Assembly (NCBI GenBank): GCA_010671905.1 | Contig: JAAHII010000001.1 | Coordinates: 4,092,001-4,156,000 of the forward strand | Source of the DNA: Leptolyngbya sp. SIOISBB | GTDB taxonomy: Bacteria > Cyanobacteriota > Cyanobacteriia > Phormidesmidales > Phormidesmidaceae | DNA: 64,000 nt | Direction of reading: 5' to 3' | In this document: positions 24,992 to 30,527 of the stretch, piece after piece | Position numbering within the stretch: the first letter of the stretch is position 1 | Layout: the number at the start of each line of letters is the position of its first letter | Program-made: the position numbers and the translations under genes | The notes under the pieces: generated by a model | Seen by the model: the letters and a program-made list of their open reading frames with translations, nothing else | What the model was told of the DNA's origin: nothing | Databases searched by the model: none

Positions 24992-26053
24992 ATGTCTGAG
25001 CCTGCCAAAAGCCTTTCACAACCGATTATTATTGCGGGCATGCACCGGTCAGGCACATCATTAACCGCCTCAATTTTGCAGCAGGCTGGGGTGTTTATTG
25101 GCGATCAATTATTAGAGGCTAACGTCGGCAACACCAAAGGATATTTTGAAGATGCCGACTTTCTCAACCTCCATCGAGAGGTTCTGATTGCTCAAGGCAT
25201 TGGTGCTGAGGGTTGGTCCGCGGCTGGAAAAGTTGAGGTGCCCGAACAATTTTGGCAACGGGCGCAGACACTGTGCGATCGCCGTCTGCAAACCCATGCC
25301 CTATGGGGTTGGAAAGAACCACGCACGACTTTATTTCTCGACTTTTGGCAGTGCTTACTGCCCCAGGTCAAAGTGATTTTGCCCTACCGATCGCCCTGGG
25401 AAGTCATTGACTCTCTATTTATGCGGGGAGACGACATTTTTGTCCATAATCCAAATTTTGCAGTGGACATTTGGCTTGCTTATAATCGAGCCGTCTTGGC
25501 GTTTTATCAGCAGCATCCTGACGACTGTTTTTTGTTTCACTGCCATGTGTTGAGAACCGATGAGGCGGGTTTTGTCGATCAGGTGCGGCAAAAACTTGAG
25601 TTACCGTTGACTGTTCCCGATCAGCGCCTGTTTGATCCGGCAGTCATGCATCATCAGGGAAGCCATACCCATCGCCTGACGTTGCTAGCGCTTCATTTTC
25701 CCGAGACGCTGGAGTTATATGACAAGTTACAGCAATTGGCCGACATCCCAACCTCAGAAGCTGTGAAAACAACGGCTTCAAACGAGGCTGAGGCAGCTTA
25801 TAGAGATTGGATTCTGCAAGATTGGCGCACCAGCAGCCGTAGTCAAACAGAGCTCAAACAGCTCAAAACGGAATTGCAAACGGTGCAAGCTCAACTCCAA
25901 ACCTTAGCCGCTCAACTGCAACAGGCTCAGGCGAAACTCACCCATCAACAACGCACAATTGAGGCCATGGAGTCCAACCGGGCTTGGCAACTGCGGAATG
26001 CTTGGCTCAGTCTTAAAAAACGCCTCAACCTCATGCCTGAGGAGCCTTCATGA
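24992..26053 (+). CDS. Sulfotransferase family protein
   Basis: The 353-residue protein starts with a PAPS-binding loop, GMHRSGTSLTA (residues 16-26), and later has the 3'-phosphate-binding region LPYRSPWEVIDSL. This is the arrangement of cytosolic sulfotransferases that transfer sulfate from PAPS to sugars or peptides. A coiled coil (about residues 280-325, Gln/Leu-rich) and the tail MESNRAWQLRNAW follow; the latter is often seen in cyanobacterial glycan-assembly proteins. Its position 3' of wzm-wzt suggests sulfation of the exported polysaccharide. That link is inference. Confidence 0.85.
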   Translation: MSEPAKSLSQPIIIAGMHRSGTSLTASILQQAGVFIGDQLLEANVGNTKGYFEDADFLNLHREVLIAQGIGAEGWSAAGKVEVPEQFWQRAQTLCDRRLQTHALWGWKEPRTTLFLDFWQCLLPQVKVILPYRSPWEVIDSLFMRGDDIFVHNPNFAVDIWLAYNRAVLAFYQQHPDDCFLFHCHVLRTDEAGFVDQVRQKLELPLTVPDQRLFDPAVMHHQGSHTHRLTLLALHFPETLELYDKLQQLADIPTSEAVKTTASNEAEAAYRDWILQDWRTSSRSQTELKQLKTELQTVQAQLQTLAAQLQQAQAKLTHQQRTIEAMESNRAWQLRNAWLSLKKRLNLMPEEPS

Positions 26054-26156
26054 CAATGTTCCAGAATAGCTGGAAAGAAATTTGTCTCTCAATTGAACCT
26101 TTTTGATCGCCCCCCAGTCTAAAGGGACGTCCACACAATGAGCAGGTGCATCATCA

Positions 26157-26729
26157 GTGACCTCGACTTCACTGGAGCCAGAAATGCCCGCTGTCCCCAC
26201 CTCGGATGCTGAACTTATTCAGCACTGTCTGCGAGGACAGCAATCGGCATTTCAAGCCCTGTACCGGCGTTATCAACGACCGGTACGCGGGACGTTGTTC
26301 CAACTCTGTGGGGAAGCTGAGCTAGATGACCTCGTGCAAGAGGTGTTTTTACGAGTCTGGAAGGGCCTGCCAAAATTTCGGCAATCGGCCCAGTTCTCCA
26401 CCTGGCTATATCGCATTACTTGGAATGTGGCGACCGATCGCCGCCGCACCCAAGGTCAAGCGCGATCGCAGCCTCTCCTGTCACCCCTAGCGCCGCTGTC
26501 TGATCAGTCTGACCTCACCCAACTTCATTACGAAGACCTAGTGCAGCGAGGACTCCAGACATTGTCTTTGGAGCATCGAGCCGTTCTTATCCTGCATGAT
26601 TTGGAAGATTTACCGCAGCAAGTAGTTGCCAACATCCTGGACATTCCCAAGGGCACGGTGAAGTCTCGCCTCCACCATGCGCGCTCGGCCTTGCGCACAT
26701 TTTTGCAACAAGAAGGGGTACAGCTATGA
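26157..26729 (+). CDS. ECF-type RNA polymerase sigma factor
   Basis: The 190-residue protein contains region 2 (about residues 23-95, with AFQALYRRYQRPV, DDLVQEVFLRVWKGLPKF and FSTWLYRITWNVATDRRR) and region 4 (about 128-180, with AVLILHDLEDLPQQVVANILDIPKGTVKSRLHHAR). Regions 1 and 3 are absent, as in extracytoplasmic-function sigma factors. The start is GTG at 26157; internal ATGs are possible. Its stop codon overlaps the ATG of the next gene (ATGA), so the two are translationally coupled. This arrangement points to a sigma/anti-sigma pair. Confidence 0.93.
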   Translation: MTSTSLEPEMPAVPTSDAELIQHCLRGQQSAFQALYRRYQRPVRGTLFQLCGEAELDDLVQEVFLRVWKGLPKFRQSAQFSTWLYRITWNVATDRRRTQGQARSQPLLSPLAPLSDQSDLTQLHYEDLVQRGLQTLSLEHRAVLILHDLEDLPQQVVANILDIPKGTVKSRLHHARSALRTFLQQEGVQL

Positions 26730-27091
26730 CCTTGCCACCGAACCAGGACGACGATCTCTTAGTCGATTTTGTGCGTCGCCACCGCCCCGAACCACCCGCT
26801 GCAGATCCGAATTTGGAAGCGCAGATCATGGCAGCGATCGCCGTCGAACCACCCATGTCAGTGGTTCGACGGCGACGGTGGTTCATCCCTGCCTTAGCGG
26901 CGTCAGTGTTGCTTTTAGGGGGTGGCTGGGTTGTGTGGCGCTCAACGCTGCCAAGCTGGCAAACAGCTTCAGATGTGGACGATTTTGTGGCGGAGACCTG
27001 GTATGCCAGTGCCTACGGTGACGAGGCCCGGCTACCCCTCGATACTGCCCAGTTCGACTGGCTAGTGTCGGTATATGCCACGCCCTATTGA
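26726..27091 (+). CDS. Candidate membrane-bound anti-sigma factor
   Basis: The protein has 121 residues: a cytoplasmic N-terminal helix region (about 1-48, starting MTLPPNQDDDLLVDFVRRH), an Arg-rich stop, one membrane helix (about 52-71, WFIPALAASVLLLGGGWVVW) and a periplasmic part of about 50 residues. That single-span layout and the 4-bp overlap with the ECF sigma gene make an anti-sigma role likely. It has no ZAS-type HxxxCxxC zinc motif, so it would be a non-canonical type. The function is inferred from position and topology, not from homology I can name. Confidence 0.65.
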   Translation: MTLPPNQDDDLLVDFVRRHRPEPPAADPNLEAQIMAAIAVEPPMSVVRRRRWFIPALAASVLLLGGGWVVWRSTLPSWQTASDVDDFVAETWYASAYGDEARLPLDTAQFDWLVSVYATPY

Positions 27092-27114
27092 TGTTTTAAT
27101 TTTGGAGATTTGTG

Positions 27115-27615
27115 ATGAATCGGAGAACTTTATCTTTGTTGGCGATCGCGGGTCTAACTCTGCCTATTTTGGGTGGGCTGAGCGCCTCGCAGCTAAACGC
27201 TCAAGTCGGCGACGGTCTCGGTGGAGGCGACGGTCCTCGTGGAGATCGGGCCGAGCGACTCATTGAAAATCTTGATCTCACCGATGATCAAGCAGCCCAA
27301 CTACGAGCGATTCGTGAAGGGAACCGCGAAGAGATGCAAGCCCTACACGAAAACCTCAGGAACGAACGTGAAGCCATGCATGACTTGATGGCTGGCACTG
27401 CTTCCGAGGCCGAACTGCGGGCACAGCATGATGCCGTGCAGTCTCGACATCGTGAAGTCGCTGACCAACGGTTTGAAAACATGCTCGCCGTGCGCAACGT
27501 ACTCACCCCTGAGCAACGCACTGAAATTGCCGGACAAATGGAGCAGCGCCGTGAAACGCGTCGCGAGCGACTGCAAGAACGTTTTGATGGTCGCCGTCAA
27601 CGCGACAGCGAGTAG
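27115..27615 (+). CDS. Spy/CpxP-family periplasmic protein
   Basis: A signal peptide (about residues 1-30, cleavage near LNAQV) precedes a helical, charged domain with two LTxxQ motifs (LTDDQAAQL and LTPEQRTEI). These are the mark of Spy/CpxP proteins, periplasmic chaperones or stress sensors. The protein is extremely rich in Glu and Arg. The start is the ATG at 27115; a GTG lies just before. It follows the anti-sigma gene by 23 bp and is probably in the same operon. By analogy with heavy-metal sensors of the CnrX type it may tune the anti-sigma factor, which is inference. Confidence 0.82.
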   Translation: MNRRTLSLLAIAGLTLPILGGLSASQLNAQVGDGLGGGDGPRGDRAERLIENLDLTDDQAAQLRAIREGNREEMQALHENLRNEREAMHDLMAGTASEAELRAQHDAVQSRHREVADQRFENMLAVRNVLTPEQRTEIAGQMEQRRETRRERLQERFDGRRQRDSE

Positions 27616-27721: not shown

Positions 27722-28864
27722 CAGGAGTTACGCATTGACAGCTGAATGAATGTATGGGTTGAGAATCAAAGATGTTGAATAACCTATTCCGTTGCGGATT
27801 CTGACCAAACCTTCCACAGCGCACTGCACGCTCAACCTCTACGTCCGCTATCTGCTAGCCCAACCGCAAGGTTCCGGCTGTTGCGAACTGGCTGAGCTCC
27901 TCAAAACGGTGTCCCACGACAGCGTCAATCGCTTTCTGTGCCGAGAGCGCTACGAGCCGAAGGATCTGTTGGACGAGTTAGTCTCTCAAGGCTGGATTGA
28001 CTTAGTCGGCGGTGTTGTGAGCGTGGACGATACCGTGCTGGAAAAGCCTTATGCGCAGCGAAAAGCGACCGCTCTGTTGGGCTATTTCTGGAGCAGTAAA
28101 GCCGCCCAGCCGGTGCTGGGACTTTCACTGGTCACACTTTACTACACCAGCCTCAATGGCTTGCGAGTGCCGATTAACTACCGGCTCTATGACAAAGCGG
28201 AGGGGAAAACTAAAAACCAATACTTTCAGGAAATGTGGCAGGAAGTGAGGCAATGGGGTCTGCGCCCTCGCGCCGTCACGAGCGATACTTGGGATGCCGC
28301 CAAGGCCAATCTCAATGTGCTCAAAGACGACCAGACGGGGTTTTTAGTCGGCGTTGCCAAGAATCGGCTGGTGCGTTTAACACCTCATCAGGCTTATCAA
28401 CGAGTAGACACGTTAGCCATTCCAGACTCCGGGAGGCTGGTCTATCTTAAGGGAGTCGGGCGAGTCAAGGTCTTTTGCCAGCGCTTCAAAAACGAATCGT
28501 GTCGGTACTATGCCTTGTACTTGCCTGACCCTGAGGCGCTAGAAGCAGCCGCAGCGGATGACTTTGAGCAGTTGCATACCCAACACTGGGGCATTGAATG
28601 TTTTCACCGGGCCGGAAAACAATTGTGTGCTCTAAAACGCTTTCGAGTGCGCTTAAAGGAAGCTATTCACACCCATATCTTCTGCGCCCTGCGCGCCTTT
28701 GTCGAGTTGGAGTTGCAAGTCTGGCACCAGCAGTTAGGCAATTGGTATGAGCTACAACGTCACCTCTATCAAGCGGTCGCTCGCCAGTTCATCCGCCAAT
28801 CACCGCTGATGGGGAGGACCGCTTAAATTATGACTTTGTTGAATTTGTCAATGCGTAAGTCCTG
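27722..28864 (+). mobile_element. Complete insertion sequence, 1143 bp, with terminal inverted repeats and 5-bp target duplication
   Basis: Terminal inverted repeats of 18 bp with one mismatch lie at 27722-27739 (CAGGAGTTACGCATTGAC) and 28847-28864 (reverse complement CAGGACTTACGCATTGAC). The sequence GCAAT occurs immediately outside both ends (27717-27721 and 28865-28869), a 5-bp target-site duplication. The element holds one intact transposase gene and no HIP1 octamer, unlike its surroundings. These facts indicate a complete and probably recent insertion. Confidence 0.93.
27792..28826 (+). CDS. IS4-superfamily DDE transposase
   Basis: The 344-residue protein fills most of the insertion sequence. 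The likely catalytic acidic residues are in VDDTVLEKPYA, TSDTWDA and HWGIECFHRAGKQLCALKRF. The last fits the Y/W-x-x-R/E-x-x-x-K pattern of IS4-like transposases, with the glutamate in GIE and the lysine six to seven residues on. The start codon is uncertain (27792 is not ATG: GTTGCGGATT context, TTG). The exact family (IS4, IS701 or ISH3-like) is left open because a 5-bp duplication does not settle it. The frame is intact, so it may be active. Confidence 0.85.
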   Translation: MRILTKPSTAHCTLNLYVRYLLAQPQGSGCCELAELLKTVSHDSVNRFLCRERYEPKDLLDELVSQGWIDLVGGVVSVDDTVLEKPYAQRKATALLGYFWSSKAAQPVLGLSLVTLYYTSLNGLRVPINYRLYDKAEGKTKNQYFQEMWQEVRQWGLRPRAVTSDTWDAAKANLNVLKDDQTGFLVGVAKNRLVRLTPHQAYQRVDTLAIPDSGRLVYLKGVGRVKVFCQRFKNESCRYYALYLPDPEALEAAAADDFEQLHTQHWGIECFHRAGKQLCALKRFRVRLKEAIHTHIFCALRAFVELELQVWHQQLGNWYELQRHLYQAVARQFIRQSPLMGRTA

Positions 28865-28915
28865 GCAATTTAATCCGTCATTTTTAGAAGAAGTGAGGTC
28901 GGTTCACAGACTGCC

Positions 28916-28921
28916 TATAAT
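28916..28921 (+). promoter_or_regulatory. Candidate -10 box of lysS
   Basis: A perfect TATAAT lies 37 bp before the lysS start and 52 bp after the right end of the insertion sequence. No good -35 box sits at the proper distance, so the promoter is tentative. The insertion removed or displaced anything farther upstream. Confidence 0.35.
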
Positions 28922-28958
28922 GAGGGTTTGTTTGTGTTGCCCACCTCTCCTAAAATTC

Positions 28959-30527
28959 ATGGCCCAGAACGAGTCACCCAAAACCGATCAGAGCACGTCT
29001 ACCCTTGATGAAATCCGGGCGACCCGACTGCAAAAGGTGCAGCAACTCACCGAAGCGGGCCTGAACCCATTTGCTTATCGCTGGGAGAAAACTCATAGCG
29101 CCGCTGAGCTTCAGGACAAATATCAGGGGTTAGCTGCGGGTGAAGAAGTTGAAGATGAAGTCGCGATCGCCGGACGCATCCTCGCCCGTCGCGTCTTTGG
29201 CAAACTCGCCTTTTTCAATATCCAAGACGAGAGCGGCACCATCCAGCTCTATTTGGATAAAAAGGTCATTCGCGACAGCATGACCGAGAACCCTGACGCC
29301 TTTAATCAGGTCAAGCAACTCACTGATGTCGGCGACTTCATTGGCGTGCGCGGCACTCTCAAGCGCACGGAAAAAGGGGAACTTTCAGTCAAAGTGCAGG
29401 AATACGCCCTGCTGACCAAATCCTTACTGCCCCTGCCAGACAAGTGGCATGGCCTCACCGACATCTCTAAGCGTTACCGCCAGCGCTACGTCGACCTCAT
29501 CGTGAATCCCGACGTGCGCGACACCTTTCGCAAGCGGGCTCTGATCACCTCGGGCATTCGCCGCTTTTTTGAAGATCGCGGCTTTTTAGAAATCGAAACT
29601 CCCGTGCTGCAGAGTGAAGCAGGGGGAGCCGAGGCGCGTCCCTTTACCACCCATCACAACGCCCTGGATATGCCGATGTTTTTGCGGATTGCCACCGAAC
29701 TTCATCTCAAGCGGCTGGTAGTCGGCGGTTTTGAGAAGGTGTTCGAAATTGGTCGGATCTTTCGCAATGAGGGCATCTCGACCCGCCACAATCCCGAATT
29801 CACCAGCATTGAAGTTTACGAAGCCTACGCCGACTATCACGACTTTATGGCAATGACAGAAGCCCTCATTGCCCAAGTCACCGAGTCGGTGCTCGGCACC
29901 ACCACAATTACGTATCAAGACCAAGCAATTGACCTCAACCCTCCGTGGCGGCGGGCCACCATGCATGAACTGGTCAAAGAAAAGACGGGTCTGGATTTTG
30001 AACAGCTAGCAGACTTCGAGGTGGCGAAAGACAAGGTTATCGCTCTGGGGATCACCGATTTAACTGGCTGCGACTCCCTCGGGCGGCTACTCAACACCGT
30101 ATTTGAAGAAACCGTTGAAGCCGATCTGGTTCAACCCATATTTGTGATCGATCATCCGGTTGAGATTTCACCACTGTCGAAACCCCATCGCAGCAAGCCC
30201 GGTATTGTTGAGCGGTTTGAGCTGTTCATTGCGGGACGCGAGACGGCCAATGGCTTTTCTGAGTTGACGGATCCCATTGATCAACGGGTGCGGTTTGAAG
30301 CTCAGGCTGCCCGTAAAGCCGCTGGTGACCTCGAAGCCACGGGCGTGGACGAAGATTTCCTCACCGCGCTGGAATACGGGATGCCGCCCACCTGTGGTCT
30401 CGGCATTGGGATCGATCGCCTCGTCATGCTCCTCACCGACAGCCCCAGCATCCGAGACGTCATCGCCTTCCCCTTGTTAAAGCCAGAACGTACTGCTGAG
30501 AGCGAACCGGACACTCCAACATCCTAG
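28959..30527 (+). CDS. lysS: Lysyl-tRNA synthetase, class II
   Basis: The enzyme charges tRNA-Lys. It has an N-terminal OB-fold anticodon-binding domain (about residues 55-165, [26 protein letters not shown]) and a class II catalytic core with motif 1 ([24 protein letters not shown]), motif 2 ([24 protein letters not shown]) and motif 3 ([13 protein letters not shown]). The frame is open upstream to 28830, but the ATG at 28959 ([10 protein letters not shown]) gives the usual length of about 522 residues. The upstream part of the frame runs into the insertion sequence and is not protein-like. Confidence 0.97.

Follow-up and report, generated by a model that had tools for sequence, protein, structure and literature searches.

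A SigH-type sigma factor, a probable membrane anti-sigma factor and a Spy-like protein encoded together in Leptolyngbya sp. SIOISBB: a candidate envelope-stress switch of cyanobacteria

Introduction

What does a cyanobacterial extracytoplasmic function (ECF) sigma factor respond to, when its gene is followed directly by those of a single-span membrane protein and a periplasmic protein of the Spy/CpxP family? The question is raised by three genes in a stretch of 64,000 nucleotides from Leptolyngbya sp. SIOISBB (contig JAAHII010000001.1, positions 4,092,001 to 4,156,000; hereafter the window, in whose numbering coordinates are given). An earlier note, made from the letters of the window, had proposed that these genes form a switch for envelope or metal stress, parallel to CnrYXH. 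The analysis presented here favors a circuit of envelope proteostasis over a metal switch, its main rival being a reading in which the Spy-like protein is purely an effector.

Organization and Conservation of the Triad

All three genes lie on the forward strand. The ECF sigma gene occupies 26157–26729 (190 aa, GTG start), the gene of the probable cognate anti-sigma factor 26726–27091 (121 aa) and that of the Spy/CpxP-like (LTXXQ) periplasmic protein 27115–27615 (166 aa, with a signal sequence at approximately residues 1–29). The genes had been described as overlapping or abutting, and this holds for the first two, which are joined by an ATGA overlap, but not for the third, which is separated from the second by a gap of 23 nt; its start was taken as the ATG at 27115 in preference to the GTG at 27112.

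Of 95 genomes searched with the second protein, 23 contained relatives, the own genome included. At the 22 loci outside the window the sigma gene always precedes (22/22), and at 20 of them a Spy-like gene comes next; the two exceptions (L027, L030) belong to one genus. When the second protein was used as a single sequence, it was found in 6 of 57 genomes of the window's family, where the module is thus patchy. Named genomes were also searched with an alignment of the sigma factor, giving at least 80 loci, 40 of them with cyanobacterial titles (L032–L070, L073), a sample that includes close relatives. Among the matches listed, the second gene adjoins the sigma gene in all 40 of these cyanobacterial loci found by the sigma factor alone, a Spy-like gene adjoins in 38, and the 4-nt overlap between sigma and second gene (ATGA or GTGA) recurs in 32; the arrangement is therefore not a matter of chance. 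The two loci lacking an adjacent Spy-like gene are L043, at a contig edge, and L066 (Gloeomargaritales), with none nearby. The earlier note had called for such a search and had made its proposal depend on the second gene being kept beside the sigma gene in most relatives, as it is in every listed case. Together with the coordinates and the domain matches described below, this recurrence confirms the triad as real.

The listed loci include Gloeobacterales (L070) and Candidatus Cyanaurora (L069). All three genes were also found in a contig with a Nitrospinota title (L071, in the same order), in one with a Deltaproteobacteria title (L072), and in two with Bdellovibrionales titles (L074, L075, in the order Spy, sigma, anti-sigma), all four being contigs of metagenome-assembled genomes that could be mis-binned. 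The other 36 listed loci (L076–L111) are without the triad; L076 and L098 each show a single weak match to a partner. The anti-sigma profile matched 56 of 292 genomes sampled from the phylum, with absences that are soft since at most 14 candidates per genome were scored. Judged by this distribution, the triad is an old and widely kept cyanobacterial module.

Identity of the Sigma Factor

The first protein matches Pfam Sigma70_r2 (4.3e-19) and Sigma70_r4_2 (6.9e-12), and NCBIfam NF009171 with 281.8 bits against a cut-off of 208. To place it among the cyanobacterial sigma factors, gene order was compared with that of strain BP-1, whose sigma genes are ordered SigD, SigH, SigC, SigA, SigF, SigB, SigG in Table 1 of a 2009 review (PMC2758279). 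Seven sigma genes of genome G085 match that table in order and strands; with the sigma profile, the gene at the SigH place (tlr0317) reaches 278 bits and the one at the SigG place 107 bits, and it is the former that has an anti-sigma and a Spy gene after it. Where the gene lies and how it scores thus rule out SigG as the identity of the window sigma, which by sequence is of the SigH type, orthologous with Tlr0317 and Sll0856 (Sll0856 by type, Tlr0317 by position in G085). The SigG/SapG system of cyanobacteria is alike in that an ECF sigma factor is co-transcribed with a membrane anti-sigma factor, as described in the same review (PMC2758279), but it is of another ECF type at another locus, and the anti-sigma factor at the SigG place is not matched by the profile of the triad's. 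In its account of the SigH-type group the review states that nothing is known of target genes, and it names no partner there (PMC2758279). The window sigma belongs to this group (Sll0856, Tlr0317); the anti-sigma factor, the Spy partner and the regulon are proposed here.

The Probable Anti-Sigma Factor

Hydropathy places a single hydrophobic span at approximately residues 52–71 of the second protein (26879–26938), followed by a periplasmic tail of about 50 residues. From the position of the span it follows that the cytoplasmic part (26726–26875) is about 50 residues long, so that the short cytoplasmic part announced in the earlier note is present, its length being nearer 50 residues than the 48 given. 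In an alignment of 22 sequences this part carries the near-invariant pattern L..FLRQ.RP..P...P.LE, with L12, F15, P24, L30 and E31 near-invariant, and a model of the L036 homolog predicts two short helices in it. On the other side of the membrane, the helix SDVDDFVAETWY (26969–27004) contains Trp92, which is kept in at least 90% of the 22 aligned sequences and makes the helix a candidate docking site. A periplasmic Trp helix was recognized in 32 of the 40 listed cyanobacterial loci by pattern and in 38 by eye. At L069, L070, L022 and L023, some of them early-branching, a C-terminal tail AVDPQTxLYEVRF or close to it replaces the Trp helix.

The second protein of the window contains no cysteine, and the motif HxxxCxxC is absent from all 40 listed loci. 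Membership of the zinc-binding class I anti-sigma factors (ZAS) was therefore ruled out, in agreement with the earlier note.

The second gene could instead encode some other small membrane protein, with the sigma factor being controlled in another way. This would be in keeping with the failure to find a Pfam anti-sigma domain in it, with an NCBIfam match that stays below threshold (24.2 bits against a cut-off of 100) and with the lack of a solved relative. A cognate anti-sigma factor is, however, usually marked by just what is seen here, namely the gene order, translational coupling to the sigma gene, one membrane span and a near-invariant helical motif on the cytoplasmic side, together with adjacency in 40 of 40 listed loci, and we consider this alternative very improbable. 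It is highly likely, from their sequences, that the sigma factor and the single-span protein are a cognate sigma/anti-sigma pair in putative contact with each other.

The Promoter of the Operon

An ECF promoter, TGAACC-N17-GTCTAA, is predicted at 26094–26122 on the forward strand (−35 element at 26094–26099, −10 element at 26117–26122). The autoregulated promoter that the earlier note had suggested looking for thus has a candidate. Of 41 loci (the window and the 40 listed), 37 have the same signal, TGAAC-N18-GTCT, before the sigma gene, compared with 0.14 per set in shuffles that preserved base composition only. The loci without it are L051, L057, L063 and L069. A looser pattern, GAAC-N18-GTC, is found in 40 of the 41, a figure that stands without a control, and TGAAC-N18-GTCT occurs on the reverse strand in 2 of the 41 upstream regions, one of these (L048) being a divergent promoter. 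The consensus, TTGAACCTTTT...GTCTAAA, is that of a typical ECF promoter; the 29 bases of the window site are identical in the own genome (G000), G001 and G005, and the Nitrospinota locus (L071) also has TGAAC-N18-GTCT upstream. In four close genomes a looser promoter pattern gave no more matches than its reversed control once the operon sites were set apart (3 against 12 in the own genome).

Prediction of such a promoter has precedent as such, since SigH motifs were predicted earlier from published sigma clusters, as indicated in PMC8155712, and an RpoE-like promoter is described as mapped upstream of sigH in Synechocystis (PMC2758279). Given how regularly the predicted promoter recurs in sequence, the operon is very probably autoregulated by its own sigma factor. 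L208 and L209, which come from the genomes of the Nostoc loci L050 and L048, have a copy of the promoter that is divergent and faces the gene of a small secreted protein of 83 aa, on the opposite strand beside the sigma operon.

Sites Elsewhere in the Genomes

Strict matches to the promoter were also sought genome-wide. They numbered 52 against 3 for the reversed control in 386 genomes, and 19 against 3 in 34 genomes chosen for having the second gene; a slightly looser pattern gave 47 against 11 in 40 genomes. Among 292 genomes, site and anti-sigma gene occur together in 32, the site only in 1 (G134, without an anti-sigma match), the anti-sigma gene only in 24 and neither in 235. The anti-sigma gene is accordingly present in 32 of 33 site-bearing and 24 of 259 site-less genomes (Fisher p 2.6e-26, a value that ignores relatedness and treats the 292 genomes as contained in the 386, which is supported but for about one genome).

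Forty regions with 44 sites, several of them from related genomes, were then read, of which 5 are operon promoters and 39 lie elsewhere. Left out of this reading were G470, G329, G181, G312, G314 and G426, whose letters are as, or nearly as, those of the L179/L192 site, as well as G380:C75; the sites in G473, G467:C150, G449:C117, G489 and G481 were counted as operon sites by assumption. The largest class among the 39 non-operon sites stands before SigB-type group 2 sigma genes (17). Another 6 are found ahead of additional Spy genes, and 7 ahead of efflux genes: 5 of these lead into a MacA/HlyD-like gene with a MacB-like open reading frame (ORF) behind it, and 2 into a gene for a resistance-nodulation-division (RND) pump or for the adaptor of one. 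DUF1800 genes account for 2 sites and small secreted proteins for 3, whereas 4 have no clear target (L187, L193, L197 and L207, the last lying inside an ORF). For the DUF1800, HlyD, MacB, RND and Spy classes, individual cases were verified with Pfam. DUF1800 genes also lie behind the triad in 7 of the 40 listed loci (L034, L038, L048, L050, L054, L064, L073) and behind the same promoter elsewhere (L175, L177, L188), so that this exported protein is tied to the candidate regulon.

A strict site precedes a SigB-type gene in 11 of the 40 genomes that were searched with the slightly looser pattern, G395 being judged by a place and letters that are the same as in G156. The region upstream of SigB was then checked in the other 28 cyanobacterial genomes together with G000 and G012, where 28 loci could be anchored (L267 and L271 could not) and where the best match in some genomes may be another group 2 sigma factor (54–66% identity). 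TGAAC-N18-GTCTA was found in L280 only and the looser GAAC-N18-GTC in L259, L262 and L272 (the match in L272 being of little use, since the gene there starts at the contig end); the remaining 24 of the 28, the window's own genome among them, have neither. Control of SigB as a general rule was rejected on these 24 loci, and by its sites only some lineages have the link to SigB. In the window's genome, two group 2 sigma genes, G000:C1:1675027-1675720 (L288) and G000:C1:5413520-5414245 (L006), are each divided between two reading frames, the break falling close to one shared conserved part of region 2; they are either decayed genes or assembly errors.

The Spy genes are a further class of target. 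Genomes G071, G089 and G399 have sigma and anti-sigma genes without an adjacent Spy gene, and each encodes a Spy-like protein elsewhere. In G399 the unlinked Spy gene has TGAAC-N18-GTCT 180 nt ahead of it; in G071 and G089 the signal stands ahead of a gene for a secreted protein, with the Spy gene immediately after that gene. The product of that intervening gene has 202 aa and is Thr/Gly-rich (L249:881-1489, L250:878-1486), that of L249 being without a Pfam match. Because unlinked Spy genes or their operons carry the site, linkage and co-regulation appear separable, and Spy is very probably an output of the SigH-type sigma factor.

Promoter evidence for Spy as an output does not by itself make it a sensor. 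It is distinctly possible, though we think it the minority case, that Spy is only an effector, and that it is the periplasmic tail of the anti-sigma factor that senses envelope stress, regulated proteolysis of the site-2 protease type then disposing of the anti-sigma factor. Spy genes that carry the site even when unlinked, or that possess a separate one (L213, L214), show what an output gene needs, and operon membership alone could also explain the linkage in the triad. The near-constancy of that linkage (38 of 40 listed loci) and the parallel with CnrX and CpxP suggest, on the other hand, more than a target gene.

The Spy-Like Protein and the Question of Metals

The third protein matches LTXXQ (PF07813, 6.2e-13, 49.7 bits against a cut-off of 24.3) and, also above the Pfam cut-off, Metal_resist (PF13801, 9.2e-11). 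In a profile search of the PDB the best match was Spy (3oeo, 2.4e-12). The signal sequence region has A24, A29 and Q30 conserved in 31, 29 and 28 of 39 Spy-like proteins, the conserved AQ coinciding with the predicted cleavage point. By sequence, the third protein is a member of the Spy/CpxP (LTXXQ) family, for which a chaperone role is predicted.

A switch on the strict CnrYXH plan, in which the third protein would be a CnrX-like metal sensor and the output metal efflux, was also considered. The PF13801 match, the high rank of CnrX and NccX by structure (below) and the RND/HlyD-type efflux genes that carry the site in some genomes would agree with it. Against this, no conserved set of His or Cys residues was found among the 39 Spy-like proteins, where the best His column reaches 20 of 39 and 9 have no His after residue 35; the closest solved protein by sequence is Spy, with CnrX missing from the PDB profile matches up to E 1; and most non-operon sites precede sigB or Spy genes. 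High copper moreover lowered sigH transcripts in Synechocystis, according to a table in PMC4182526. Without a conserved ligand set the strict metal switch was rejected, and we regard it as improbable. The metal half of the earlier proposal is thus not upheld, while its likening of the locus to CnrYXH keeps the three-part layout with a non-zinc anti-sigma factor, the CnrX-like fold ranking and the sigma-type promoter.

Structural Models

Foldseek ranks CnrX, ZraP, NccX and CpxP first for the Spy-like part of the model, with no match below E 0.001 (best CnrX E 0.16, probability 1.00), and VIA also puts CnrX on top, with a Z-score of 10.0 over 104 aligned residues (root-mean-square deviation 3.0), Z-scores of helical bundles being weak evidence. 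The models thus indicate that the third protein has the CnrX/Spy fold, which the PF13801 match above cut-off also fits.

The anti-sigma factor and Spy were also modeled as one read-through chain, with a mean pLDDT (predicted local distance difference test) of 76 and a pTM (predicted template modeling score) of 0.54. Among the 11 best structural matches, 10 (entries of CnrX, CpxP or NccX) begin to align at residues 87–91, within the periplasmic helix, the remaining CpxP entry and Spy aligning from residues 170–171. The model hints weakly that the periplasmic helix may pack on the Spy core.

Neighboring Open Reading Frames

Directly upstream of the triad is an ORF that by eye is sulfotransferase-like (24992–26053), and a similar ORF precedes the triad in L010 and L011. 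Directly downstream is an ORF that by eye is transposase-like (27792–28826), with a lysyl-tRNA synthetase-like ORF beyond it (28830–30527).

Discussion

How, then, might the triad work? It is proposed that the single-span anti-sigma factor would hold the SigH-type sigma factor at the membrane, its cytoplasmic part of about 50 residues with two short helices binding sigma much as CnrY binds CnrH, while the conserved periplasmic helix would report the state of the envelope. Most likely, a free Spy-like chaperone would dock on this helix and keep the brake on; damaged envelope proteins would draw Spy away, and the anti-sigma brake would be released or degraded. The freed sigma factor would then transcribe its own operon from TGAAC-N18-GTCTAA, and the additional Spy would act in repair and, at the same time, as negative feedback. 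The sigma factor would also drive, in other lineages, extra Spy genes, MacA/HlyD-MacB, RND efflux and the SigB-type stress sigma factor. The sequences establish the triad, how widely it is kept, the promoter and the sites at other genes; the two protein contacts, the signal and the release of the brake are the parts that we infer. For an autoregulated envelope-proteostasis switch with Spy as product and feedback ligand, and with both protein contacts putative, we judge the chances to be about even; that Spy also restrains the anti-sigma factor we put slightly short of even.

Several observations weigh against this proposal. The two predicted helices would suit a class II anti-sigma domain that wraps the sigma factor as CnrY does, but the second protein has no profile match to any solved anti-sigma factor, CnrY included. 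L069 and L070 have Spy while being without the periplasmic Trp helix, and the helix is retained without an adjacent Spy gene in L027, L030 and L066; it may therefore serve something else, as the pure-effector reading would also have it. In the read-through model unrelated proteins also align, from residues 76–87, and the model is a single fused chain without an error estimate between its parts. The model of sigma with anti-sigma is poor (mean pLDDT 68, pTM 0.34) and is not used here to propose an interface. TGAACCN17GTCTWA has a single exact match in the own genome, the operon site, compared with 4 matches in the reversed control. Genomes G000 and G077, both of which have the triad, also contain five further Spy-like genes that are unlinked and have no upstream site.

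Of known systems, CnrYXH and NccYXH of Cupriavidus metallidurans share with the triad an ECF sigma factor, a short non-zinc membrane anti-sigma factor and a periplasmic protein of CnrX/Spy fold, and efflux genes are among the candidate outputs here in some species. The triad differs in having no conserved metal ligand set, in the order sigma, anti-sigma, Spy, in a third protein closest by sequence to Spy, and in candidate outputs that include Spy and SigB-type genes. CnrX is also membrane-anchored, whereas the third protein has a signal sequence of the cleavable type. Spy and CpxP of Escherichia coli are alike in LTXXQ family, sequence and fold, and the double role of repair and brake proposed here resembles that of CpxP, a feedback inhibitor of CpxA, but the coupling here is to an ECF sigma factor and its anti-sigma factor and not to a two-component system. 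The RpoE8 operon of Azospirillum brasilense joins a sigma factor, a hypothetical protein and a ‘periplasmic heavy metal sensor’ (PMC12826043); it is alphaproteobacterial, is named in that report only as up-regulated, and is likened to the triad by gene kinds alone. A literature search of titles and abstract starts found no SigH-type sigma factor paired with an anti-sigma factor or a Spy-like protein, and the texts of PMC4227741 and PMC7760821 gave no matching passage; the paper on SigG/SapG of Nostoc and the large classification of ECF sigma factors lie outside that search and might mention the module. As far as the search reaches, the switch is indeed under-described, as had been supposed.

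More broadly, we tentatively suggest that the SigH-type sigma factor may be a cyanobacterial counterpart of the sigma-E and Cpx systems, in which a Spy-like chaperone would be the direct ligand restraining a CnrY-like anti-sigma factor. The released sigma factor would drive MacAB/RND efflux besides chaperones; in some lineages, unicellular for the most part, it would also drive a SigB-type heat and general stress sigma factor, giving an envelope-to-cytoplasm sigma cascade, and the module would predate the split of Gloeobacterales from other cyanobacteria. For the SigH-type sigma factor the analysis supplies a promoter and a probable partner, and beyond these a candidate regulon and a sensor that can be tested. 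The findings also suggest that the CnrYXH plan extends beyond metals, in that a protein with a chaperone fold can be wired to an ECF sigma factor for quality control of envelope proteins. The sites before SigB-type genes, if used, would tie periplasmic damage to the general stress response in some cyanobacteria.
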